Below, in pieces: positions 13,271 to 49,844 of a DNA stretch of 64,000 nt. Origin of the DNA: Paenibacillus pabuli (GTDB taxonomy: Bacteria; Bacillota; Bacilli; Paenibacillales; Paenibacillaceae); the NCBI RefSeq assembly GCF_039831995.1, contig NZ_JBDOIO010000003.1, positions 62,001 through 126,000 of the forward strand, in the 5' to 3' direction. A program made the translations under genes and the position numbers. How positions within the stretch are numbered: the first letter of the stretch is position 1; every line of letters starts with the position of its first letter. Under the pieces are notes generated by a model that was not told the origin of the DNA, did not search any database, and saw nothing but the letters and a program-made list of their open reading frames with translations.

Positions 13271-14242
13271 ATGAACGGACGGGTTATGGCTGCAGGAGGG
13301 CAACCGGGAGGCAGACCATCCAGACAAATTAATGTTGTATTGCGCAACCAGGAGCCTCAGATGTTGGCCAAGGAAGAGGAGACACCACTTCAGGCAGTAA
13401 AGGGATTAGCTAAGCACAGCCATTTTCAGGAGATTCAGGGTGAGCTGGAGCAGTTGGTTGGGCTGGAAAACATCAAGGATCTCGTATTTGAAATCTATGC
13501 ATTTTTGCAAATCGCCCAGATGCGTTCTGAGGCAGGCCTAATCAGTGGAGCACATGTGTATCATATGATTTTCAAAGGAAATCCAGGGACAGGAAAAACA
13601 ACGGTTGCGCGGATTGTCGCCAAGCTGTTCCAAAAGATGGGCGTGCTCAGCAAAGGTCACCTCATTGAGGTAGAGCGGGCCGATCTGGTGGGAGAATACA
13701 TTGGACATACAGCGCAGAAAACACGTGATCTGGTGAAGAAAGCACTTGGAGGCATCTTGTTTATCGACGAGGCATACAGCTTGGCTCGCGGAGGCGAGAA
13801 GGATTTTGGCAAGGAAGCGATTGATACGCTTGTAAAATCCATGGAAGATCATAAAAATCAATTCATACTGATCCTGGCAGGGTACTCTGAAGAAATTGAT
13901 TTCTTTCTGCAGACCAATCCGGGATTACCATCCCGATTTCCTATTCAGGTTGAATTTCCGGATTACAGTATAGATCAGTTAATACAAATTTCAGAGATTA
14001 TGGCCAAAGAGCGAGACTATATTTTAATGCCACAGACCATCCTGAAATTGAAGCAGCATTTGCTGCAGGAAAAAAATGAATCTCTACATGCTTTCAGCAA
14101 TGCTCGATATGTTCGAAATGCAATTGAGCGCTCCATACGTCATCAGGCGGTTCGATTGCTGGAACAGTATACCCAGGGCAGCCCAGGGAAATTGGAACTG
14201 ATGACGATTCGAACAGAGGATTTGAAGTTTGAGCGAAAGTAA
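13271..14242 (+). CDS. spoVK: Stage V sporulation protein K, AAA ATPase
   Basis: SpoVK is a CbbX-like AAA+ ATPase needed for late spore maturation. The 323-residue protein matches the B. subtilis length. Walker A is GNPGTGKTT (near residue 102), Walker B LFIDEAYSLARGG (near 163), with sensor and arginine-finger segments (GLPSRFPIQVEFPDY) and the C-terminal helical lid (NARYVRNAIERSIRHQA). The ATG follows GAGGTGATGGCGA. A sigma-E-like promoter lies upstream. The neighbours hflX, ynbB and glnRA keep the B. subtilis order. Confidence 0.95.
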   Translation: MNGRVMAAGGQPGGRPSRQINVVLRNQEPQMLAKEEETPLQAVKGLAKHSHFQEIQGELEQLVGLENIKDLVFEIYAFLQIAQMRSEAGLISGAHVYHMIFKGNPGTGKTTVARIVAKLFQKMGVLSKGHLIEVERADLVGEYIGHTAQKTRDLVKKALGGILFIDEAYSLARGGEKDFGKEAIDTLVKSMEDHKNQFILILAGYSEEIDFFLQTNPGLPSRFPIQVEFPDYSIDQLIQISEIMAKERDYILMPQTILKLKQHLLQEKNESLHAFSNARYVRNAIERSIRHQAVRLLEQYTQGSPGKLELMTIRTEDLKFERK

Positions 14243-39168: not shown

Positions 39169-39198
39169 TTTACAATATCTTGTAGCGTATACTATAAT
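39169..39198 (+). promoter_or_regulatory. Sigma-A promoter before the Tad-like operon leader
   Basis: TTTACA (39169-39174), 18-base spacer, TATAAT (39193-39198). Transcription would begin near 39205, just before a large hairpin. Confidence 0.65.
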
Positions 39199-39225: not shown

Positions 39226-39298
39226 AAGGGAAAGCATCCCGAGGTGGACAAGTCCGGATAACCGGTCTGTTCCGCTTCGGTAAGCTTTCCCTTTTTTG
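39226..39298 (+). terminator. Large terminator-like hairpin: operon end, attenuator or small RNA
   Basis: AAGGGAAAGC (39226-39235) pairs with GCTTTCCCTT (39284-39293) and runs into a T tract. The interior also folds: GAGGTGGACA (39241-39250) with TGTTCCGCTTC, and CCGG-ATAA-CCGG at the tip. It can end readthrough from the methyltransferase operon, but since a promoter lies just upstream, it could also give a roughly 90-base RNA or attenuate the downstream kinase operon. Confidence 0.75.
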
Positions 39299-39321: not shown

Positions 39322-40797
39322 ATGAGACATCCGGCGAGGCTGGAACGCGGAAGCCTGCTGGGAGGACGATATCGGATCGAGTCCGTACTGGGTTCAGGTG
39401 GGATGAGTCACGTATATAAGGCAGAAGATATGAAGTTGCCAGGTAAGACTTGGGCCATCAAAGAAAGTGTTGCTACGATACCTTACGAAGCAAGTATGGA
39501 GACGGAAGCTGCTCTTCTGACATCACTCAGACACCCAAGATTACCGCTGATTGTTGATTTTTTTGTACCGGATGAAGAGGGGTATACGTATCTGGTAATG
39601 GAATACATTGAGGGTCAGACACTGAGCGATTATCACAAGCAATGTCGCGGAAAGATCCCACTCGAACATATGACAGATTTTGTACTCCAATTACTCGATG
39701 TGCTCAGTTATTTGCATGGTCTGAATCCGGCAGTGATCTATCGGGATCTGAAGCCATCCAACATCATGGTAACCCCAGACCATGAAGTCAGGTTGATAGA
39801 CTTTGGAATTGCTCGCAGCTTCAAAGCTCAGCATACAGAGGATACGGTAAAACTGGGTACGGCAGGGTTTGCTGCCCCAGAACAATACGGTACCGGACAA
39901 ACGGATGCCAGATCGGATTTGTATGGGCTTGGAGCCTTGCTGCTGTACCTCATGACTGGTGGTACGTATACGGAATGGATCCAAGGCGTTGAAAGCTCCA
40001 TACGCAGTGATGTTCCGCGCACCTACATTCCGGTTGTAAGGCGATTATTGAGACAGAATCCCGAGGAACGTTTTCAATCTGCCGACGAAGTCCGCAAAGA
40101 ACTGCTTCGAAGACCTGGAATTACGGAGAGTAATGAACCGACAACATTGACAATCAGCGGCGGGACTAGAGTTATCGCTCTGACAGGGGCATCTTCCGGT
40201 GTTGGGGTTACGCATACGGCCATAGCCATTAGCCATTACCTGGAGAGACAACAGTTTAAAGTGGCAGTCATTGAGATGTCGCCGCGTTCCCAATCGTTTG
40301 CAAGGATTCAGCAAGTTGCACAAGCCGGGAAGCCGTTATCTACAGGCAGACAGTTTGCAGTAGACGGAGTGCACTATTGGAAACAGTCCGGACGAGCAGA
40401 TATTTTGTCGCTGCTCGGAGGAAGCTATCAATTCATCGTTATGGATCTGGGCAGTAGTCAGGATCAGAACCGACTAGAGGAGTTTCTCAGAGCAGACCTG
40501 CCTATTGTTGTAGGGTCAGGCGCTGAGTGGAAACAGGCAGAGATCAATGCCTTTGTTCGTTCGCATTATCGTTATCCGAGGGACAAATGGATTTATTGTC
40601 TGCCGCTAGCAGCCACTGATGCAGTTCAGCGTGTACGTAGATCATTGAATACATCAAGTGTATATGGGCTTCCATTGCACATTGATCCTTTTGACAGGGA
40701 TCCGCAGACAGACAAGGTATTTGCGCACATTTTAAATCATTTGATCGGGCAGCTGCCCAAGAAGCGTTCGTTTTTTGCAAGAAGAAAAAATTCATGA
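39322..40797 (+). CDS. Ser/Thr protein kinase fused to a CpaE/MinD-like domain
   Basis: A 491-residue cytosolic fusion. Residues about 16-262 are a Hanks-type kinase: glycine loop GSGGMSHVYK (24-33), Lys47 in WAIKE, catalytic YRDLKPSN (140-147, Tyr in place of the usual His), DFG 160-162, APEQYG. Residues about 280-480 resemble a CpaE/MinD-type P-loop ATPase (VIALTGASSGVGVTHTAIAISHYLERQ), but the deviant Walker A has no lysine (SSGVGVTHT), so nucleotide hydrolysis is doubtful. Starts ATG 39322 behind AAAGGAGG. It heads a Tad-like operon and may phosphorylate pilus parts or localise the machine. Domain order is seen; the role is inference. Confidence 0.9.
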   Translation: MRHPARLERGSLLGGRYRIESVLGSGGMSHVYKAEDMKLPGKTWAIKESVATIPYEASMETEAALLTSLRHPRLPLIVDFFVPDEEGYTYLVMEYIEGQTLSDYHKQCRGKIPLEHMTDFVLQLLDVLSYLHGLNPAVIYRDLKPSNIMVTPDHEVRLIDFGIARSFKAQHTEDTVKLGTAGFAAPEQYGTGQTDARSDLYGLGALLLYLMTGGTYTEWIQGVESSIRSDVPRTYIPVVRRLLRQNPEERFQSADEVRKELLRRPGITESNEPTTLTISGGTRVIALTGASSGVGVTHTAIAISHYLERQQFKVAVIEMSPRSQSFARIQQVAQAGKPLSTGRQFAVDGVHYWKQSGRADILSLLGGSYQFIVMDLGSSQDQNRLEEFLRADLPIVVGSGAEWKQAEINAFVRSHYRYPRDKWIYCLPLAATDAVQRVRRSLNTSSVYGLPLHIDPFDRDPQTDKVFAHILNHLIGQLPKKRSFFARRKNS

Positions 40798-40827
40798 TTA
40801 GAGGAGCTTGTGAAAGGAGAGCCTTTT

Positions 40828-41844
40828 TTGTCCAAATTAAGAAAACAAAGCCGACAAATGATCTATGCCGGACTAACCGGTGCGGGTGCAGTAGGATTAT
40901 TGTTCGGGGGATATGTCATCTACAACGTATTTACAATGAATGACACCAAATCCAAAATGGAGGCCCAGTATGCTTCAGCTTATGAGCAAAAAGAGGCTGA
41001 GCTGCTGCAGCAATGGAACACGGGAGCACAGGGCTGGGTAACGGTGCGTGACATTGAAGCAGGAGAACCGATCTTGCCCGAGGATATTAAACTTATTGCA
41101 GTACCGGATGCTCAGGCACCACGTAATTTATGGTCCAGCACCAAACAGATGGAAGGCCAAGTAGCCAAAATAGAACTGAAAAAAGGAACAGCCATAACAA
41201 CCGAAATGGTGTACGAAGACACACCGGCTCCGCCGGATCTAAGAAATCGTGAACTGCAGGTCGTTTTATTACCCTCTTCACTTGCTCAAGGAGACAATAT
41301 TGACATTCGAATCCAATTTCCAACAGGTCAGGACTATATCCTTCTGTCCAAAAAGAAAGTAGAGCGCCTGAATGAAGCGACGTTGTGGATCACCATGACT
41401 GAGGAAGAAATCCTGTCGCTGTCCAGCGCAATTGTAGATGCCTATTTACATAAAGCTTCGATTTATGCACTAACGTATGTTGAGCCTCAGTTCCAGACAG
41501 CAGCAATCCCAACGTACCCTGCCAATAGTGAAGTGCTGAAACTGCTTGAAAGTGATCCGAATATCGTTCGCAGGGCAGAACAGGAGTTGTCGAGACAGGT
41601 ACGGAGTTCCCTTGAGAGCTCTCTGGCTGCTTCCATAACAGTGCCGTCTCAAAGTGTTGAGCAAGATGTTGCACAATCATCTGTATCCCATAACAGCAGA
41701 CCTCGATCTAACAATACTTCGAACGAAGTCATATGGAATGACGGATCAGGAAGCAATCAGCAAACGACAAATGGAAATAATGACTCCACTGAGTCCTCCG
41801 GATATACGGATGAACAGAAAAGTCTTTTGACCGGTGGGGAGTAG
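40828..41844 (+). CDS. CpaB/RcpC-like SAF-domain pilus assembly protein
   Basis: About 338 residues. A membrane span near the N-terminus (MIYAGLTGAGAVGLLFGGYVIYN in two parts) is followed by a SAF domain (VTVRDIEAGEPILPEDIKLIAVPDAQAPRNLW, then GQVAKIELKKGTAITTEMVYED), as in CpaB/RcpC, which binds peptidoglycan and guides Tad pili through the envelope. A Ser/Asn/Gln-rich C-terminus of about 60 residues follows. TTG at 40828 is preferred because AAAGGAGAG lies 7 bases upstream; GTG at 40810 has only GAGGAG 3 bases away. Confidence 0.8.
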   Translation: MSKLRKQSRQMIYAGLTGAGAVGLLFGGYVIYNVFTMNDTKSKMEAQYASAYEQKEAELLQQWNTGAQGWVTVRDIEAGEPILPEDIKLIAVPDAQAPRNLWSSTKQMEGQVAKIELKKGTAITTEMVYEDTPAPPDLRNRELQVVLLPSSLAQGDNIDIRIQFPTGQDYILLSKKKVERLNEATLWITMTEEEILSLSSAIVDAYLHKASIYALTYVEPQFQTAAIPTYPANSEVLKLLESDPNIVRRAEQELSRQVRSSLESSLAASITVPSQSVEQDVAQSSVSHNSRPRSNNTSNEVIWNDGSGSNQQTTNGNNDSTESSGYTDEQKSLLTGGE

Positions 41845-41917
41845 CTGACATATACCATTTAACAATTTAATTCAGATAACAACAAATTCATGCATTCAAG
41901 AAAGGAGTTGAGATCAC

Positions 41918-42631
41918 TTGCATATTTGGATTTTCGCCGGATTATGTGAGAAAAATGATCTGATGTTATATCTGTGCAAAATTTTAGCCACTTCAGGCAA
42001 GCGGGTTTTGCTGGTGGACGGAACTTTGCAACAAAAGTACGGGTATGGGGTTGGAGAAGAACACCATTCTCTGCGGATCACTGAATTCGAGGGTTTTGAT
42101 ATTGCCTGTCACTTTGTGACATCGGCTGCTGTTGAGAGTCATTTGGAGGCAAGTGGAGAAGGGTTGGAATCCTATGATTATGTCTTGTATGACATGGAAA
42201 CCTCTCATTTCGCCTCAAGGGAATTGTGGCTTACGGCCGATATTCGTGTCTGGGTAAGTGATTATGAACGTTACAATCTGGAACGAGGAAAAGGCTGGTT
42301 GAGGCGGCTTCTTGAAGAGCAGTCCTTGCCAACAGAGCTTTCATTTCAGCGCATTCTGATTAATGCAGTCGACTGCAAATTGGAGGAACGTTACCTGTGG
42401 GCTTATCTGGAGGGAAGTCCATTTGTTTGGACAGGTGAATCATTGATGCTTCCCTGGGATGAACTGACTGCTGCGGTAAAACTGGAAAATGAACATCATC
42501 GTCGGGTGCGGTTAGGGCCTTTATCACGGAGTTACAAAAAATCATTATGTCGATTGTTCGAGCAATTGACCGGATGGGAAAGTGTTTGGAGCCGCCGAGC
42601 AATAAAGGAAGCGGAAAGGATGAGAGCATGA
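41918..42631 (+). CDS. CpaE-like protein with degenerate P-loop (first copy)
   Basis: A 237-residue protein whose pattern (MHIWIFAGLCEKNDLMLYLCKILATSGKRVLLVDG in segments) matches the first strand, helix and second strand of CpaE/TadZ-type ATPases, with the loop lacking the Walker glycines and lysine. SYDYVLYDMET resembles the second conserved acidic strand. It is probably a scaffold rather than an ATPase. TTG start at 41918 follows AAAGGAG. Its stop overlaps the next ATG by four bases. Confidence 0.65.
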   Translation: MHIWIFAGLCEKNDLMLYLCKILATSGKRVLLVDGTLQQKYGYGVGEEHHSLRITEFEGFDIACHFVTSAAVESHLEASGEGLESYDYVLYDMETSHFASRELWLTADIRVWVSDYERYNLERGKGWLRRLLEEQSLPTELSFQRILINAVDCKLEERYLWAYLEGSPFVWTGESLMLPWDELTAAVKLENEHHRRVRLGPLSRSYKKSLCRLFEQLTGWESVWSRRAIKEAERMRA

Positions 42632-43458
42632 GCAACATTTTGTTTTGGAGTCCTTTTGCAGGCTCGGGCAGTACGTCCAGTGCAGTAATTAGCGCCTACG
42701 CCATGGCACTTCAATACAGGACCCGGATTTTATTAGTAAACACTGGCCCCGCCGGCAGTGGTATTGAAGCATCGCTTACAACTATGGAGTCAGGACATGC
42801 TGACTCTCTGTTCAGATTTGAAGAGGGTGGTTGGGATGCAGCAGAACGTTTACATATTAGCGGAAGCCTGAACAAGCATAATTTGAGAGATTACGCAAAG
42901 CCGCTTTTACAGGAAAGACTGGATTTATTGACCGGACGAATTAACCAGATGGAACGCACGCCAAAAGAACATGCAGAAACGTTGAAAGCACTGCTGAAAG
43001 TGGCGAATGAGTACTACGATATGGTTTTGCTGGATGTGGACCGGGAGGGGATGGATGCGGCCGTTCTCCTGGCTCAAGCTGACTATGTTGTCGTGAATTT
43101 AACACAAAATATGCGGGATCTGGAATTGTTTTTTGAACATATCAGACCGGAGAGTTTGAGTAACCAAAACATGCATGTTGTCATCAACAAGTATGATCCG
43201 CAAGCAAGGGCAACAGTTAACAACATTCGCCGGCGCTTCCGTTACAAAGGATCTGTATCCATTGTGCCTTATACAACCGCATTCCTGGATGCAGTGAACC
43301 GGCGGGATACAGCTACGTATCTGCAACTTGAAGGATTGAGTGATAGTAGAGATCTTCGAAAAGGGAGCATGGGCGCCAGTATGGCTGAACTTGCTCGCCT
43401 GATTATGGACGGTGCCGGTATGCGCACTGTTTTGAAAAGGCTGGAAAGGGGAGCCTGA
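42628..43458 (+). CDS. CpaE-like protein without Walker lysine (second copy)
   Basis: A 276-residue MinD/CpaE-fold protein: NILFWSPFAGSGSTSSAVISAYAMAL (loop GSGSTSS without a lysine), RILLVNTGP, MVLLDVDREGMDAAVLLAQADYVVVNLTQN (typical of MinD-like strand 4-5), and VVINKYDPQARAT resembling the base-recognition segment. The fold is convincing; catalytic capacity is doubtful. It may position the CpaF-like motor. The ATG at 42628 sits in an ATGA overlap; an open frame from 42547 reads through the previous gene. Confidence 0.72.
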   Translation: MSNILFWSPFAGSGSTSSAVISAYAMALQYRTRILLVNTGPAGSGIEASLTTMESGHADSLFRFEEGGWDAAERLHISGSLNKHNLRDYAKPLLQERLDLLTGRINQMERTPKEHAETLKALLKVANEYYDMVLLDVDREGMDAAVLLAQADYVVVNLTQNMRDLELFFEHIRPESLSNQNMHVVINKYDPQARATVNNIRRRFRYKGSVSIVPYTTAFLDAVNRRDTATYLQLEGLSDSRDLRKGSMGASMAELARLIMDGAGMRTVLKRLERGA

Positions 43459-43465
43459 ACCTCCA

Positions 43466-45292
43466 ATGCTCTGGAATACGATAGGGATCAGTTTCATTTT
43501 GATAGCGGTTTTGACATACATCTGGATCAAAACGAAAACATTCAATCGGCAAAAAATTGCAGGAACTCCTGAACGAGAGGCATTCACGATTGAAATGTTA
43601 ACTGAACAGGTGAAGAACTCGCTGCATGAATTAAGTCATAGTCAGCTTGCTGATATCGGTCTACATGAAGAAGAATATCGAAGAAGAATCAATCAGCGTG
43701 CCGAGATGAGAAAAGCACTAAAAGGCTGCGTCTCTGGCAGCATTAGTGACAAAACTTATGTAAAAAACCTGATCGGTGATTTGCTCACTCGAAATATAGG
43801 TCTGAACAAGACCAATGTGGATGAAGTCATCCTTTTTGCGGAGCCCGAGTTGTTATCCGTTCAAGATCAGTTTGAGATTGTCTTTTACCTCTACCGTCAG
43901 CAATTCGGCGTTGATGCCTTGTCACGATTAATTGACACGTACGATCTGGGCAGGCTCCGATTGGAGGATGGTGCTGAGGATGGCGGTGGATATTATATTT
44001 CCGAGGAAGATATCCGGTACGTATTTGAATGCGAATACCGTGAGCTTGGATTTAGAGAAAAAACGGATATTATCGTCCAGCGAATCTACCAGCATTACAA
44101 GGGCTTCTCGGTTGTAGATGAAATCAGAGACCAGCGAATTGACGGGGTTAGCGGGGGAGTTAGCGGTATGCTGGATGCCATGCAGGATATGGGAGTTCAG
44201 CACCCAGCTTCCTGGAATGATCTGTTGGAAGATGGCTTTGAGGATACACCAGTGGAGGTTCCGTTAAGTGGTATGGAAAGTGTTTGGATTTTCTACAAAG
44301 GGAAGTCGATCCATCTTTCATTTCTATCGTTCGGCAGTATCCGGGAACTGAAAAGGGTTTGTCAGAATATTTATAAATACAATTACCCTGGTCAGCTGTC
44401 GGAAGCGAATGGATATAAAGTCAACGAAATGAAGGATGGCTCTCGCGTAGTTGTGGTAAGGCCTCCTTTTGCAGAGTCATGGGCTTTTTTTGTCCGTAAA
44501 TTCGACATTCCCAATGCCTCGCTTGAGCAATTGATAACTGGAAAGAATGCGGAACTGCCAATCACGTTGTTGCAGTACCTCATGAAAGGAAGCCGCATTA
44601 CGGCTGTGACAGGTGCACAGGGATCGGGTAAAACGACGCTGCTGATGGCGATGGTCAAGCATATTTATGCCTCATACACCCTGCGTGTACAAGAGATGGC
44701 ATTTGAGCTGCAGCTGCGTCGAATCTACAGCCGTCGTAATATTTTGAGCTTTCGGGAGACGGAACATATTTCAGGTCAACAAGGACTGGATTTGCAGAAA
44801 AAAACGGATGGAACAGTCAATATACTTGGCGAGGTTGCAAGTGATGAGGTTGCTGCCTGGATGATTCAAATGTCGCAGGTTGCCAGTTTGTTCACCCTGT
44901 TTACCCATCATGCCAAGACGTTCCGTGATTTGGTATTCTCACTCCGAAATTCTTTGCTCAAAACAGGCATGTTTCAACATGAGCACATCGCCGAGGAACA
45001 GGTCGTCAGTGTCATCAATTTTGATGTTCATATGAAAAAGGATCCAGAAGGACGCAGGTACATCGAGCGAATTACAGAGTGCTTGCCCCGTGCCGATCAG
45101 GTGCACAGTGTAGAAGAACGTGCAGGATTTGCTTTTCGGAATGTGATCGAATTTAAGCAGGGCAAATATGTGGTGACCGCGCCCCTTTCCACAAGCAGCA
45201 TCATGGATATGCGGGACCATATGACTTTGCAGGATGCATCACAGTTTGAACAATTTATCGAGCAGTACTGGGGTGATATGCATGACAACTAA
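43466..45292 (+). CDS. CpaF/TadA-like secretion ATPase with membrane anchor
   Basis: A 608-residue type II/IV secretion ATPase, the only one in the operon with an intact Walker A: GAQGSGKTT (near 383). NILGEVASDEV and FTLFTHHAKTF correspond to the GEVR and GHAN motifs of CpaF but are altered (for example GEVASD for GEVRG). Residues about 4-20 form a transmembrane helix (LWNTIGISFILIAVLTYIW), which classical cytosolic CpaF lacks. The N-terminal 200 residues are otherwise unlike standard CpaF. It should power export or assembly of the pilin-like proteins encoded behind it. Confidence 0.8.
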   Translation: MLWNTIGISFILIAVLTYIWIKTKTFNRQKIAGTPEREAFTIEMLTEQVKNSLHELSHSQLADIGLHEEEYRRRINQRAEMRKALKGCVSGSISDKTYVKNLIGDLLTRNIGLNKTNVDEVILFAEPELLSVQDQFEIVFYLYRQQFGVDALSRLIDTYDLGRLRLEDGAEDGGGYYISEEDIRYVFECEYRELGFREKTDIIVQRIYQHYKGFSVVDEIRDQRIDGVSGGVSGMLDAMQDMGVQHPASWNDLLEDGFEDTPVEVPLSGMESVWIFYKGKSIHLSFLSFGSIRELKRVCQNIYKYNYPGQLSEANGYKVNEMKDGSRVVVVRPPFAESWAFFVRKFDIPNASLEQLITGKNAELPITLLQYLMKGSRITAVTGAQGSGKTTLLMAMVKHIYASYTLRVQEMAFELQLRRIYSRRNILSFRETEHISGQQGLDLQKKTDGTVNILGEVASDEVAAWMIQMSQVASLFTLFTHHAKTFRDLVFSLRNSLLKTGMFQHEHIAEEQVVSVINFDVHMKKDPEGRRYIERITECLPRADQVHSVEERAGFAFRNVIEFKQGKYVVTAPLSTSSIMDMRDHMTLQDASQFEQFIEQYWGDMHDN

Positions 45293-47348
45293 ATCGTGGC
45301 TTATCATTCTGCTGGCTGTATGCATATCCGGACTGGTGGTTACGCTCCTAATTCTCAATTTCTATCTTAAGAGAGGAAAGGGGGCGAGCAGTAGAGCCGC
45401 TGGAGCACCAACTCCTACTGTCCATCGAACGGTATGGATGAGGTCATTCCTGCTGCAGTCCTACCGCTGGGGAATGAAGGTGCCTCTGCTATCATCCTAT
45501 ATCTATCTCATTCAGAAGCGGATTTCTTTCAGACATGTTGGAGACGAAGCATCATTACGTCGTATGACCATGACTGTTGTTCTGGTCGTTGCCGGGGGAT
45601 ACGGTAGTATTAGTATCGTGCTGTTTTTAATGCAACCGGGTATTGCTTTCGTCATTTTGTCCGTACTTTGTGCTGTCGTGATCAATAGCCTTGTTGTGGA
45701 CTTGTGGCTAAATCGTACGGAGAAGCGGCTTCTGGTCCACATGCTGGACCTGTTTGCGGATGTGCGGCATCGATATCATCAGCACGGAATGATTGAAGAA
45801 GCACTCTATGAAGCTGGAGAAGCAGGCGTGGGTGAAGCAGCCGATCAGGTGCTGCTGATCTATGAGGCACTGACATCGCCAGATCCCAATGAAGCGTTGG
45901 AGAGATATTACGAGATAGCCCCCAATCGCTTTCTGAAGGCTTTCGCTGGCATCTCCTTTATGGTCATGGAGTTTGGTGATAAGGATCGGGCTCAAGGTTC
46001 AATCTACCTGAAAGGTTTGGGAAACCTGACTCAGGAAATCCACTTGGAAATTTTGAGGCGGGACAAGCTGGATTACCTTTTAAAAGGGTTGAATATGATT
46101 GCACTGGCTCCGGTATTGTTTACCGCTCCCATCGAACGCTGGGCGAGAGGCAGTTTTCCGACCATGGATGAGTTTTACCGCAGCAAGCTTGGATTTATAA
46201 CCAAAATATCAATCTACATCATCATTATCCTGGCCTATTTGCTGTTGCAGAGACTTCAGCAATATGATGAAACTCGATTCCGGTCAGGGCGCAAACTTTC
46301 CATGATGGACCGTTTTTTATACAACCAGAGATTCATTCGTAAATTGGCCATGTTGTTTGCTGCCAAACCAGGAAGTGCTAACTACACCCAGACTGTTAGG
46401 TTGATGAGGGAGAGCAGCGCCGAATTGAAATACGAGTGGCTGGTAATCCGCAGACTGATGTTGTTTGTGTGCTCATTTGCTCTGGCGATCGGTTGTATAT
46501 TACTGCTTCATCATATCGAAAGAAATCACATTCTATTCGACCCTGTAAGAGATGACCGAATGTTTGGAGCGATGGCCGAAGCGGAACTGAATCAGGCTGC
46601 TGAAAAAACAGCTTTGGACCGAGAGGTAATGGAACGGTTAGGAATGAAACGTGGAACTAGCTACGATGATGTGTTTAACACGCTACAACAGGTTTCCCCC
46701 ATCCCCTTGGACTCCGACACGCAAACTGAAACGAGTCTGCGCATTATTCAAAAGCTGGAGGTATACAACAAGCAGTATTTGCACTGGTGGGAACTGCTGA
46801 TTGCCATTTTTATCGGTGCAGCCGGATATTACATGCCGATTTGGCTCATGATGTTTCAGCGTAAAATGCGCAGCATGGACATGAGGCATGAAATTTACCA
46901 GTATCAGACGGTAATCTCCATTTTGCGTGAGATGGATCGGATGTCCGTTGAAGAGATTTTGGAATGGCTTAATCGATTCGCTGTCATTTTTAAACGTCCA
47001 TTGCAAAAATGTCTATTGCACTTTGAGCACGGGCCCGAAAATGCGCTTGAGCAACTGAAAGAGGATGCGGGCTTGCCTGAGTTTCAGCGTTTGGTGGACA
47101 AACTGCAGCTTGCACTCGGTAAAATATCAATTCGTGAAGCATTTGATGATCTGGACAGTATGATGGCATTTTATTTTGATCAGCGGAAGCAGGAGTATAC
47201 CCGAATGATTGATGTAAAAGCCTCATGGGGCAGAATGATTGGTTTCACCCCGATGTATGCCCTCATTTTTCTCTACCTGGTGATCCCGCTTGTCGGTATG
47301 AGCTTCTTGCAAATGAACATTTATTACGAACAAATTCAGAAACTGTAG
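45285..47348 (+). CDS. Fused TadB-TadC-like type II secretion F membrane protein
   Basis: A 687-residue membrane protein with about seven spans: near 6-28, two close together around 88-135, and others near 308, 390, 500 and 657. It has two GspF-type cytosolic regions: HMLDLFADVRHRYHQHGMIEEALYEA with GISFMVMEFGDKD, and YQTVISILREMDRMSVEEILEWLNRFAVIFKRPLQ with IREAFDDLDSMMAFYF. Most Tad systems encode TadB and TadC separately; here they appear to be one chain. Start ATG 45285 overlaps the ATPase gene by 8 bases. Confidence 0.75.
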   Translation, partial: TTKSWLIILLAVCISGLVVTLLILNFYLKRGKGASSRAAGAPTPTVHRTVWMRSFLLQSYRWGMKVPLLSSYIYLIQKRISFRHVGDEASLRRMTMTVVLVVAGGYGSISIVLFLMQPGIAFVILSVLCAVVINSLVVDLWLNRTEKRLLVHMLDLFADVRHRYHQHGMIEEALYEAGEAGVGEAADQVLLIYEALTSPDPNEALERYYEIAPNRFLKAFAGISFMVMEFGDKDRAQGSIYLKGLGNLTQEIHLEILRRDKLDYLLKGLNMIALAPVLFTAPIERWARGSFPTMDEFYRSKLGFITKISIYIIIILAYLLLQRLQQYDETRFRSGRKLSMMDRFLYNQRFIRKLAMLFAAKPGSANYTQTVRLMRESSAELKYEWLVIRRLMLFVCSFALAIGCILLLHHIERNHILFDPVRDDRMFGAMAEAELNQAAEKTALDREVMERLGMKRGTSYDDVFNTLQQVSPIPLDSDTQTETSLRIIQKLEVYNKQYLHWWELLIAIFIGAAGYYMPIWLMMFQRKMRSMDMRHEIYQYQTVISILREMDRMSVEEILEWLNRFAVIFKRPLQKCLLHFEHGPENALEQLKEDAGLPEFQRLVDKLQLALGKISIREAFDDLDSMMAFYFDQRKQEYTRMIDVKASWGRMIGFTPMYALIFLYLVIPLVGMSFLQMNIYYEQIQKL

Positions 47349-47413
47349 TGTTTCAGGTTGAACCTGTTCAGTCTGATATACAATTTTTTATCAAAATATA
47401 GGAGGTTTTTAAT

Positions 47414-47899
47414 ATGAACAATGCTTCAAGTGCTTTAAAGGTAGCAGCAGGGATCTTTTTGACGATTGCCCTTATTACAATTGTGGTGCTGTTGTTTATT
47501 TCTGCTCAGGAGGCGACCAAAACGGCGCAAAACAACTTTGCGGACATTCAGACAGAATTGTCGCAGGCAGCTTTTACGGTGTATGACGGGACAACGATCA
47601 GTGGGTCTCAAGTTACTAACGCGCTGCGTAAATATGCGGACAAAGATCAATTTGGTATCCAGGTCATTACAGGAAAAAACAAGGGTGGTCAGTGGTATGG
47701 CAATGAATTAAACATTTCCCAGGACATTAACAATGCGGATTACGGTTCGGTCATCGCTCCAGATAGCAAAGTGGGCAGTATTAACCAGACCATGAGCGAG
47801 AAGGACAATCAGTACGTTAACCCAAGTGGAAAGTTCAAGGCAGTTATCGTTAAGGACAAGTCAAATGTGGTCAGAGGACTAATCTTCCAGCAATCCTGA
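47414..47899 (+). CDS. Pilin-like protein, probable major subunit
   Basis: A 161-residue protein with a short charged N-terminus, one hydrophobic helix (about 9-31: VAAGIFLTIALITIVVLLFI), then a helix-rich and beta-containing extracellular part. It lacks a G/E prepilin-peptidase site right before the helix, but the layout (helix then QEATKTAQNNFADIQTEL) resembles pilin-type proteins. It has its own spacing of 65 bases and a strong AGGAGG site, which fits higher expression as a major subunit. Function is inferred from context. Confidence 0.7.
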   Translation: MNNASSALKVAAGIFLTIALITIVVLLFISAQEATKTAQNNFADIQTELSQAAFTVYDGTTISGSQVTNALRKYADKDQFGIQVITGKNKGGQWYGNELNISQDINNADYGSVIAPDSKVGSINQTMSEKDNQYVNPSGKFKAVIVKDKSNVVRGLIFQQS

Positions 47900-47915
47900 C
47901 AGGAGTTGGTTTCCA

Positions 47916-48314
47916 TTGTCAAAAAATACACAGCAACTCATGTTGTTTTGTACCGCCATTGTCCTGTTTGTAACAGCCTGTCTGTATGGACAACAAAGCG
48001 TTAGCGTATTGGCCAGTGCTTTGAGTTCCAGCATGCACACGAATGAAGACATGGAAGGAAGAATCAATACGACATTAAGTATAAGCAAACCACTCCGTTA
48101 CAGCGGAGCTGAAGTGTTACATACGGTAAGACAAATGACTGGTACAGCGGTCGAACTGCAGGTAGACGGGAAGACATATACGATAGACCCGCTTATCAAC
48201 AGAAGTGCGACCATACCTGTTCCTGTATCCGCGTCCTATAGGCCGGAGTTTATAAGGAATGATAGCGGAGAATTGCTTATGATTGCGTTTTGGAAGGAGG
48301 CCAGTATCAATTGA
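47916..48314 (+). CDS. Small single-span protein of the Tad-like operon (132 aa)
   Basis: Not recognised by name. A hydrophobic N-terminal helix (about 7-25, LMLFCTAIVLFVTACLYG) is followed by an extracellular part with no cysteines beyond the helix. Probably a minor pilin or TadE/F-like pseudopilin. TTG start at 47916, with AGGAG 10 bases upstream; the stop overlaps the TTG of the next gene (TTGA). Confidence 0.65.
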   Translation: MSKNTQQLMLFCTAIVLFVTACLYGQQSVSVLASALSSSMHTNEDMEGRINTTLSISKPLRYSGAEVLHTVRQMTGTAVELQVDGKTYTIDPLINRSATIPVPVSASYRPEFIRNDSGELLMIAFWKEASIN

Positions 48315-48862
48315 TAAATGCTGTATCCAAGCTGCTAGCAGTTATGCTGGCAGTACTTCTGCTATATGTATATCCGACGGCGGAAATTGCAGATCGACAA
48401 GACGATATAGCGCGAATGACCACATATCAGACGGTTACCCGTTTTGTGGATTCGGTCAGAACGAAAGGTTACATTTCTCCTGGAATGTATGCCGAATTTG
48501 AAGAGCAGCTGGCACGAACAGGCAATGTTTATGAGATTACGATTGAACACCTGCACAAAAAATATGTCCCTCACTACACGGATCCTGTGGATCAAAGTAC
48601 ATTTACAGGAACGTACGAGACGGTACAGGATGCATACTACTCAGCTCAAATCCTAGAAAAAATGTTCCCTGTCTCGGGAACGTACGCAGCCGATGATCCA
48701 CGCCGCAGATATACACTGACCATAGGTGACTTTTTCACGATTACACTTAAAAATACCAATCGCACACCGGCCATGCTGATTCGCGAGTGGCTGAATGGTA
48801 CAGCCCCTGCAGCAGCAGTGTTTACCAGTTATGGAGGCATGGTTCTTAATGAAGATTACTGA
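48311..48862 (+). CDS. Small single-span protein of the Tad-like operon (183 aa)
   Basis: Not recognised by name. A hydrophobic helix near the start (about 7-22: LLAVMLAVLLLYVYPTAE) and an extracellular domain of about 160 residues with several Tyr-rich segments (FTGTYETVQDAYYSA). Likely another minor pilin-like or TadE-like protein. TTG at 48311 is chosen because GGAAGGAGG lies 10 bases upstream and it overlaps the preceding stop; a TTG at 48290 lies before that site. Confidence 0.65.
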   Translation: MINAVSKLLAVMLAVLLLYVYPTAEIADRQDDIARMTTYQTVTRFVDSVRTKGYISPGMYAEFEEQLARTGNVYEITIEHLHKKYVPHYTDPVDQSTFTGTYETVQDAYYSAQILEKMFPVSGTYAADDPRRRYTLTIGDFFTITLKNTNRTPAMLIREWLNGTAPAAAVFTSYGGMVLNEDY

Positions 48863-49844
48863 TTTGTCCATTGTGTTTGTTCTAATATTTTTGCCTTTCT
48901 TTTGGATCGTTTCTCGTCATACTCAAGATGCGGAAGACGCCCAGGTTCTAAGTCAAAGGTATAGATCGGCCCTCCAAACAGCGGTATTGGATGCTGGAAC
49001 CGTCATGCACCAGAATGAGAAGCAAAACAGTGAAGCGGGTTATGATTCCACCAAATTCGTAAAGGCAGATAAAGAACTGGCACTGCAGACATTCACTCAG
49101 ACGATAGCCTTAAATATGGGCATATATGATGATCCTCATGCGATACAAGCACTGTTCGATTATATACCCGCCATAGTTGTACTTGATTACGATGGGTATT
49201 ATATCTTGGCTAAAGAAGCAGAGATGACTGGTGAGACTGATGATTCGTACCACCAGGTATGGAGTCCTAAAATGCCCTATACATATTCAGATGCAGACGG
49301 GAGCAGCATTAATTTTACACTCGACGGTTACGTGTATGCATATGATGCCATTCAGGGTAAATGGATGGAAGGTTTTCAAAGCGAACTTGCTTCGACTACT
49401 GGGATACCATTGCTGCAAGATTCAGATTCGTTTGAGCAGGTCAGACAAACTTGTATCGTCATGAGCGTACAGGAGAAGCTCGCCGAAGTCATTAATCGGC
49501 ATAATGAGTTTGCAAGAAGAAATGGGATATCCTATACGTTTACCCTGCCTCTTATTTCACAGGAAGATTGGTACAATACGATTACGGATACGGGTATCAT
49601 GGCCTTTATTCAGGGTTTGCCTGTAGGGAACCAGAAGGTGAATACATATGCCATTGGTGGCGGCCGGTTGGTTAAAAAAACAGCAGTGATCGGAGGTGTA
49701 GACCCTTCTACCGGCATTAAGTATTATTATCCAGCAACCTGTCAGACCAACTTTCGGGCCGAAGAAGTCTTTACTGATACGAAGCAGGCCGCGGCGGCTG
49801 GGTATTTTGAATATAATTGTTACATTAACGAAGTCGTTCACTGA
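48849..49844 (+). CDS. Single-span extracellular protein of the Tad-like operon (331 aa)
   Basis: The last and largest of the small envelope proteins. One hydrophobic helix (about 5-20: DLSIVFVLIFLPFFWIV), then a large domain, YIPAIVVLDYDGYYILAKEAEM followed by several Tyr/Asp-rich segments and two C-terminal cysteines (ATCQTNF and YNCYIN) that could form a disulfide. It could cap the pilus or act as an adhesin. ATG at 48849, inside the previous gene's 3' end, with GGAGG 11 bases upstream. No known domain recognised. Confidence 0.68.
   Translation: MKITDLSIVFVLIFLPFFWIVSRHTQDAEDAQVLSQRYRSALQTAVLDAGTVMHQNEKQNSEAGYDSTKFVKADKELALQTFTQTIALNMGIYDDPHAIQALFDYIPAIVVLDYDGYYILAKEAEMTGETDDSYHQVWSPKMPYTYSDADGSSINFTLDGYVYAYDAIQGKWMEGFQSELASTTGIPLLQDSDSFEQVRQTCIVMSVQEKLAEVINRHNEFARRNGISYTFTLPLISQEDWYNTITDTGIMAFIQGLPVGNQKVNTYAIGGGRLVKKTAVIGGVDPSTGIKYYYPATCQTNFRAEEVFTDTKQAAAAGYFEYNCYINEVVH

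Follow-up and report, generated by a model that had tools for sequence, protein, structure and literature searches.

Type IV filaments are commonly defined by, among other things, the cleavage of their subunits by a prepilin peptidase. Here we analyze a ten-gene operon within a 64,000-nucleotide stretch of Paenibacillus pabuli DNA (assembly GCF_039831995.1, contig NZ_JBDOIO010000003.1, positions 62,001 to 126,000), referred to as the window, that belongs to a little-described branch of Tad machines in Paenibacillus, its relatives, and some Clostridia. The reading that best explains the operon as a whole, and to which we give moderate confidence, is a Tad-type machine that belongs to the type IV filament superfamily and operates in a cell with one membrane.

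The comparison with described systems can be summarized as follows. (i) The canonical Tad (type IVc) pilus, present in the same genome at locus L002, shares with the window locus a CpaF-type ATPase, SAF/CpaB-like and (in the window, weakly) CpaE-like proteins, and the succession of a motor gene, a platform gene (in the window, a probable one), and genes for small proteins with an N-terminal hydrophobic segment. In contrast to it, the window locus has no prepilin peptidase, Flp, or TadE match, its motor has an N-terminal membrane segment, its probable platform is in one chain, and it contains a kinase fused to a CpaE-like domain. Furthermore, the candidate major subunit, p7, has a predicted beta domain, whereas Tad pilins are described as having none (PMC12786226). 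(ii) The Tad sets that adjoin the type VII secretion systems T7SSg and T7SSh (PMC11217815) are, judged by their description, probably of the same family. Sister copies of the window operon adjoin EssC/WXG100-type genes in Paenibacillus, as that article reports for its Tad sets; its available text leaves the functional link undecided and mentions neither pilins nor a kinase fusion. Unlike these sets, the window copy is kinase led, and its scanned flanks are free of type VII genes. (iii) The type IV pilus operon of Paenibacillus thiaminolyticus is of the same superfamily and genus and differs by its PilB, PilT, PilC, and PilM-O proteins and its own prepilin peptidase (PMC9765702). Among the open-access articles listed, we found no description of the window operon, of a leader RNA of the kind reported below, or of leaderless or uncleaved pilins. 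New here are the absence of a prepilin site from p7, the type VII genes in sister loci, and the promoter and leader hairpin before the kinase gene.

The operon consists of ten adjacent open reading frames (ORFs) on the plus strand that span positions 39322-49844, as stated in a first-pass annotation made from the sequence:

p1, 39322..40797, plus strand: Hanks-type Ser/Thr kinase fused to a MinD/CpaE-like domain with an altered P-loop (GASSGVGVTH), from the Pkinase profile and motifs
p2, 40810..41844, plus strand: CpaB/RcpC-like protein, N-terminal hydrophobic segment followed by a SAF domain, from SAF and CpaB profiles
p3, 41918..42631, plus strand: possible MinD-like protein without a P-loop, from AAA_31 at 0.014 only; family in 75 of 80 loci
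p4, 42628..43458, plus strand: MinD/CpaE-like protein with an altered P-loop, from AAA_31 and CpaE_hom profiles below cut-off
p5, 43466..45292, plus strand: CpaF/TadA-type ATPase with an N-terminal hydrophobic (membrane) segment, from the PDB CpaF match and invariant residues
p6, 45282..47348, plus strand: probable fused TadB-TadC-like platform of 688 amino acids, from its position after the motor gene, a model, and a weak TadB alignment
p7, 47414..47899, plus strand: pilin-like major subunit candidate, from predicted fold, conservation, and tandem copies
p8, 47916..48314, plus strand: small protein with an N-terminal hydrophobic segment, possible minor subunit, from the ORF; G|xxxxE site absent from all 55 family members
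p9, 48311..48862, plus strand: protein with an N-terminal hydrophobic segment, from the ORF; family in 71 of 80 loci
p10, 48849..49844, plus strand: protein with an N-terminal hydrophobic segment and a larger second part, from the ORF; family in 65 of 80 loci

For p4 (42628), p6 (45282), p9 (48311), and p10 (48849), later starts were chosen from ribosome-binding sites and relatives. With these starts, genes overlap at four of the nine junctions, by 4, 11, 4, and 14 bases, so that the initial description, many overlaps of 4 to 8 bases, is approximately correct at best. The operon structure itself was confirmed: its gene order recurs in many loci, which excludes a chance grouping.

The most direct evidence for a Tad relationship comes from the motor, p5. 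A profile built on 20 of its family sequences matched solved CpaF structures in the PDB with an E value of 4.9e-12, bearing out the Tad/CpaF homology and the secretion ATPase identity put forward earlier. On its own, p5 scored just below the cut-off for T2SSE of Pfam (1.1e-5; 24.7 bits versus 24.9) and below that of the TadA family model of NCBIfam (1.3e-10). Walker A residues, including G386, G388, and K389, as well as E456, H481/H482, and R494, do not vary across these 20 sequences, and by reading, the aligned rows open with a hydrophobic segment. Judged by its sequence, p5 is thus a CpaF-type motor ATPase. Similarly, p2 shares the SAF domain of CpaB (SAF, 1.8e-8, over the cut-off; CpaB model, 8.4e-10, below it), in agreement with the CpaB-like protein that had been annotated. 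Two degenerate CpaE-like proteins had also been proposed. p4 matched AAA_31 (3.1e-5) and the CpaE homologue model (1.9e-7), both below cut-off, and like the C terminus of p1, it appears weakly MinD/CpaE-like with an altered P-loop; for p3, the sole profile match was AAA_31 at 0.014, and it may be of the same kind. Some flanking ParA genes are counted among the p3 entries in the motif comparison across loci.

p6 is probably a TadB/TadC platform in a single chain. Its predicted model contains two similar series of helices, and its N-terminal half is collinear with TadB (E value, 6.8e-5; probability, 35%), so that the suggested TadB-TadC fusion holds weakly for this half; no match was obtained for the C-terminal half, and no T2SSF profile matched p6. 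In six loci (L052, L105, L125, L127, L147, and L148), the p6 match is split over two adjacent ORFs. Profiles of p6 and p7 had no match among the PDB sequences, and the Pfam and NCBIfam scans returned nothing meaningful for p6 to p10. The models of these databases for prepilin peptidase, Flp, TadE, and secretin matched none of the ten proteins.

The family is conserved well beyond this strain. Relatives of p5 were found at E values of <1e-170 in all 36 genomes of the genus (the strain's own included; the gene is split in G014) and at <1e-100 in 9 of 23 genomes from elsewhere in the order. We compared 33 stretches (L038-L070), of which L068 and L069 are other places of the strain's own genome and L055/L066 are the two ends of a split locus. 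Gene order was kept in the remaining ones, apart from detection gaps: p1 was undetected in L046, L049, L050, L051, L052, and L062; p3 in L059, L060, L061, and L062; and p8 in L059-L062. L051 stops at a contig end, L052 has nothing after p7, L060 lacks a p2 match, L062 lacks p4 and p9 matches, and L042 and L065 have apparent frame breaks. A scan of a species-genome collection yielded at least 583 stretches, of which 562 were confirmed and 80 kept (L071-L150). By title, 45 of these are clostridial, one is "Firmicutes," and 34 are from Paenibacillus, Cohnella, or Tumebacillus. p4, p5, and p6 were detected in all 80; p2 and p7 in 78; p3 in 75; p9 in 71; p10 in 65; and p8 in 33, with several loci ending at contig ends. 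The order p2 to p10 thus recurs in Paenibacillus, Cohnella, Tumebacillus, and Clostridia, and the genes stay linked in both Bacilli and Clostridia; that relatives would conserve the order had been anticipated. In a phylum sample, the family was found in 5 of 398 genomes, compared with the 46 clostridial-type loci of the species-genome scan, a number that is not usable as a prevalence, with three candidates scored per genome. The view of the operon as a reduced variant has to be abandoned: it represents the ordinary arrangement of a distinct branch, also found in Clostridia, and the genome has a canonical Tad locus in addition.

p7 is a candidate for a pilin-like major subunit. Type IV pilins consist of a long N-terminal helix followed by a beta domain, and the model of p7 (161 amino acids; 56 sequences used; mean predicted local distance difference test score, 80.5; predicted template modeling score, 0.58) shows one helix of 54 residues (residues 2-55) followed by strands. 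Residues 1-75 are better conserved than residues 76-161 in 20 of the 24 relatives compared. In the same-genus, kinase-led loci L039, L041, L044, L047, and L048, the two segments are 93-100% and 56-92% identical to the window copy, respectively, with p5 identities of 63-88% in the four of these loci that were in the p5 alignment; for the kinase-led locus L056, the corresponding values are 53%, 46%, and 49%. Among the 78 p7-bearing loci of L071-L150, p7 is single in 29 and present in two to five copies in 49. We found 443 database relatives, nearly all Paenibacillus by organism name among the 120 listed. A common name among them, "ABC transporter permease," is called into question by this analysis, since it fits neither the size nor the predicted structure of p7. 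p8 to p10 may be minor or tip subunits. A role in a pilus or pseudopilus, as the first-pass annotation had it, appears likely. Some structural comparisons weigh against this interpretation: no pilin fold was present for p7 in the best 50 of 280 Foldseek rows or in the 31 rows of a second search, and the GspF fold was absent for p6 from the best 50 of 399.

p7 seems to be without the cleavable leader typical of other such pilins. We searched for the prepilin site, defined as G, four residues, and E ahead of an uncharged stretch (G|xxxxE; G-1/E5). It was found in none of 207 p7 proteins (one has A replacing G), none of 55 p8 proteins (one with A replacing G), 1 of 101 p9 proteins, and none of 96 p10 proteins, whereas all three pilin-type proteins tested from the canonical Tad locus of the same genome, used as positive controls, contain it. 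In 190 of the 207 p7-family proteins, the N terminus has a fixed pattern, in which M and at most two further residues precede N, itself followed by A or I. Two caveats apply to all of these counts: many clostridial p7 proteins were found via this conserved N terminus, and the choice of starts favors a fit to the alignment. Cutting by signal peptidase I is unlikely by eye, the stretch past the hydrophobic part of the helix being unconserved in distant members.

The earlier statement that prepilin peptidase, Flp pilin, and secretin are missing holds for the ten genes but not, in the case of the peptidase, for the genome. The canonical Tad locus lies on the same contig (C3) at 2.68-2.695 Mb, about 2.6 Mb from the operon, which is therefore an additional system. 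Its products include CpaF (185.6 bits), a pair of T2SSF proteins, and the sole A24 peptidase match of the genome; Flp-, TadE-, and FHA-type proteins were recognized there by eye. None of the 80 related loci has a match to the single-sequence profile of this peptidase. Elsewhere in the genome, two further secretion-ATPase-like genes were observed on contig C1 (239416-240297 and 34067-34936; L068 and L069), one a T2SSE match of 84 bits and the other a distant relative of p5.

The presence of this peptidase leads to the first alternative, namely, that the operon encodes an ordinary Tad-type pilus whose sequences have diverged almost beyond recognition and that p7 is cut at a nonstandard site by the peptidase borrowed from the canonical locus. 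The enzyme would be available: besides the single A24 match in P. pabuli, at least one was found in 59 of 59 genomes of relatives and in 44 of 46 clostridial-type genomes. Such a distribution, with peptidases nearly everywhere, made it fail as a test of independence. A separate T2SSF protein occurs in 33 of the 37 clostridial-type genomes (of 46) covered by that search, so that another type IV system probably explains the peptidase; the four genomes with a peptidase and no T2SSF match (G454, G455, G465, and G469) are metagenome-assembled genomes and may be incomplete. Together with the lack of the site in the 207 p7 proteins and the conserved residues of p7 that begin at Met1, this makes a borrowed peptidase unlikely.

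The second alternative is that the Tad-type genes form a secretion machine and not a pilus, that is, a pseudopilus exporter coupled to type VII secretion, of which the window copy would have lost EssC and WXG100 or use them in trans. Several sister loci speak for it. In L059, the head gene is preceded by EssC-like (FtsK_SpoIIIE, 4.7e-66) and YukD (4.5e-6) genes and is separated from p2 by a WXG100-like gene (2.8e-5, below cut-off); in L063, an EssC-like gene (5e-61) directly follows p10, with ORF limits 17 bases apart. EssC and WXG100 relatives are present in 5 of the 80 further loci, and among 23 genomes searched, WXG100 genes lie about 9-13 kb from a sister p5 in seven (G002, G022, G023, G024, G027, G029, and G038). 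Against it, EssC, WXG100, and YukD are absent from the ten operon genes and from the ten scanned flanking proteins, which are all housekeeping proteins. EssC was also found in none of the 20 kinase-led loci within the stretch examined; about one overlap would be expected by chance, and kinase and EssC may therefore not be mutually exclusive. We regard this exporter as improbable, to a degree comparable with the borrowed peptidase. A third proposal, a sporulation- or stress-linked envelope apparatus with p7 as an intramembrane ring or channel, somewhat like the SpoIIIA machine, is very improbable: 31 of 46 clostridial-type loci have a spoIVB relative (>100 bits) in the same orientation downstream of p10 (L088-L148; the L099 copy matches Peptidase_S55 at 2.5e-85), and pilins are missing from the p7 fold matches listed, but no spoIVB match was obtained in the other loci, this neighbor may reflect clade synteny as well as a sporulation link, and tandem p7 copies better suit filament subunits.

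Two features suggest that the proposed Tad-type machine may be regulated in Paenibacillus. The first is p1, in which the kinase fused to a CpaE-like domain is supported by sequence (Pkinase, 3.7e-37; motifs YRDLKPSN and DFG; weak MinD-like C-terminal part). The kinase occupies the place where sister loci have a nonkinase CpaE-like protein, and it may control assembly. Kinase relatives of at least 100 bits are present in 20 of 113 stretches. With the window included, 18 of the 21 kinase proteins contain both RDxKxxN and DFG, and the other three (L040, L048, and L093) have DFG and not the exact RDxKxxN string; the altered P-loop ends in G-x-T-H in all 21. At or near the head position, L058, L059, L061, L063, L064, and L072-L075 have a protein without kinase motifs that is related to p1 by profile and has a C-terminal hydrophobic segment. 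Four of the five such proteins scanned (L059, L061, L063, and L064) had no Pfam match, and their N-terminal part matched PDB entries, at a nucleotide-binding region, with E values of 0.0056 or weaker; by impression, this part may contain a receiver-like domain. The head of L050 is a ParA/CpaE-like protein with an intact KGGVGKT. Among clostridial loci read whole, L099, L107, and L141 have no p1 ahead of p2, whereas L142 has a kinase. PADLOC matches to p1 are protein kinase matches and give no defense reading.

The second feature precedes the kinase gene:

39169..39198, plus strand: sigma-A-like promoter, TTTACA-18-TATAAT; string in 16 of 17 leader-bearing loci
39226..39297, plus strand: leader hairpin with T-run, candidate attenuator, from fold and conservation
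39228-39240, plus strand: invariant 13-base core, GGGAAAGCATCCC, inside the leader hairpin; 17 loci

TTTACA-N17/18-TATAAT occurs in 16 of the 17 leader-bearing loci versus 6 of 8500 shuffled windows. The hairpin starts 29 bases after the promoter, has a run of six T, and ends 24 bases ahead of the p1 start codon. All 17 leaders fold strongly (z, -4.5 to -8.9; 100 shuffles each); the outer stem is unchanged in all of them, and inner-stem pairs differ between species. The core occurred 17 times in the loci searched, every time at the leader position. In a search of 59 whole genomes, the leader pattern was matched once in each of 33 genomes, all within the genus, in none of the 23 genomes outside it, and never by the reversed pattern. 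In 32 of the 36 same-genus genomes, its position relative to p5, some 4.2 kb ahead of that gene, coincides with the beginning of p1 at this locus. The sole match off the operon among the 33 is on contig C31 of G019 (13754-13811). No match was obtained in G016, G017, and G023, of which G017 (L056) keeps the core with an altered 3' arm, and the core was not in the kinase-led loci L053, L054, L060, and L142 or in the nonkinase loci searched. We infer from these sequence features that the leader is a candidate transcription attenuator. The alternative of a plain terminator of the upstream gene is disfavored because the conserved promoter sits between that gene and the hairpin. Rfam gave no match to the region up to an E value of 1, and LoaP-type antitermination, whose target is described as a UNCG-type hairpin (PMC12691694), appears unlikely, the leader being unlike such a hairpin by eye.

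The window copy is flanked by an FtsJ-like methyltransferase gene upstream and an ABC (ATP-binding cassette)-ATPase gene downstream, with no secretion or mobile-element protein among the ten flanking proteins scanned. A mobile or defense island was ruled out by these housekeeping flanks and by the presence of p5 in all 36 same-genus genomes. Other copies differ in their surroundings. In G014 (L055/L066; contig C1, ~3091586-3145405), roughly 54 kb of inserted DNA interrupts the p5 gene. A phage integrase (Phage_integrase, 5.4e-24) lies at the edge of the insert, and a 17-base repeat is found close to both junctions, so that p5 can serve as a prophage attachment site. By eye, from the ORFs, some second copies (L046, L058, and L061) seem to lie beside plasmid- or conjugation-like genes. 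In L049 (9417-13635) and L050 (15728-20000), p10 is followed by a secreted-looking protein, which in L050 matches Cu_amine_oxidN1 at 1.3e-33, and then by a protein of more than 1000 residues, a possible cargo or adhesin.

As a Tad-type filament machine, the operon might work as follows. The motor p5 would drive p7 from the membrane to build a short filament or pseudopilus that serves in adhesion or export, with p6 as the platform, p2 as the CpaB-like component, p1, p3, and p4 as CpaE-like components, p7 as the major subunit, and p8 to p10 as accessory (minor or tip) proteins. We propose that p7 retains its own N terminus and that, therefore, no prepilin peptidase would be needed. The leader hairpin would halt transcription until a signal relieves the block, and the kinase would gate assembly through phosphorylation of one of the components. 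Attenuation, kinase control, leaderless assembly, and the formation of a filament itself are proposals at this stage. More tentatively, these loci may represent a type IV filament branch in Bacilli and Clostridia with leaderless pilins and no need for a peptidase, in which Paenibacillus would gate transcription by an RNA switch and assembly by the kinase-CpaE protein, and of which sister forms lie inside type VII operons. A branch with subunits lacking the usual site would make the requirement for a prepilin peptidase testable in culturable Paenibacillus, and the loci with type VII genes would allow a possible cooperation between Tad machines and type VII secretion to be addressed.

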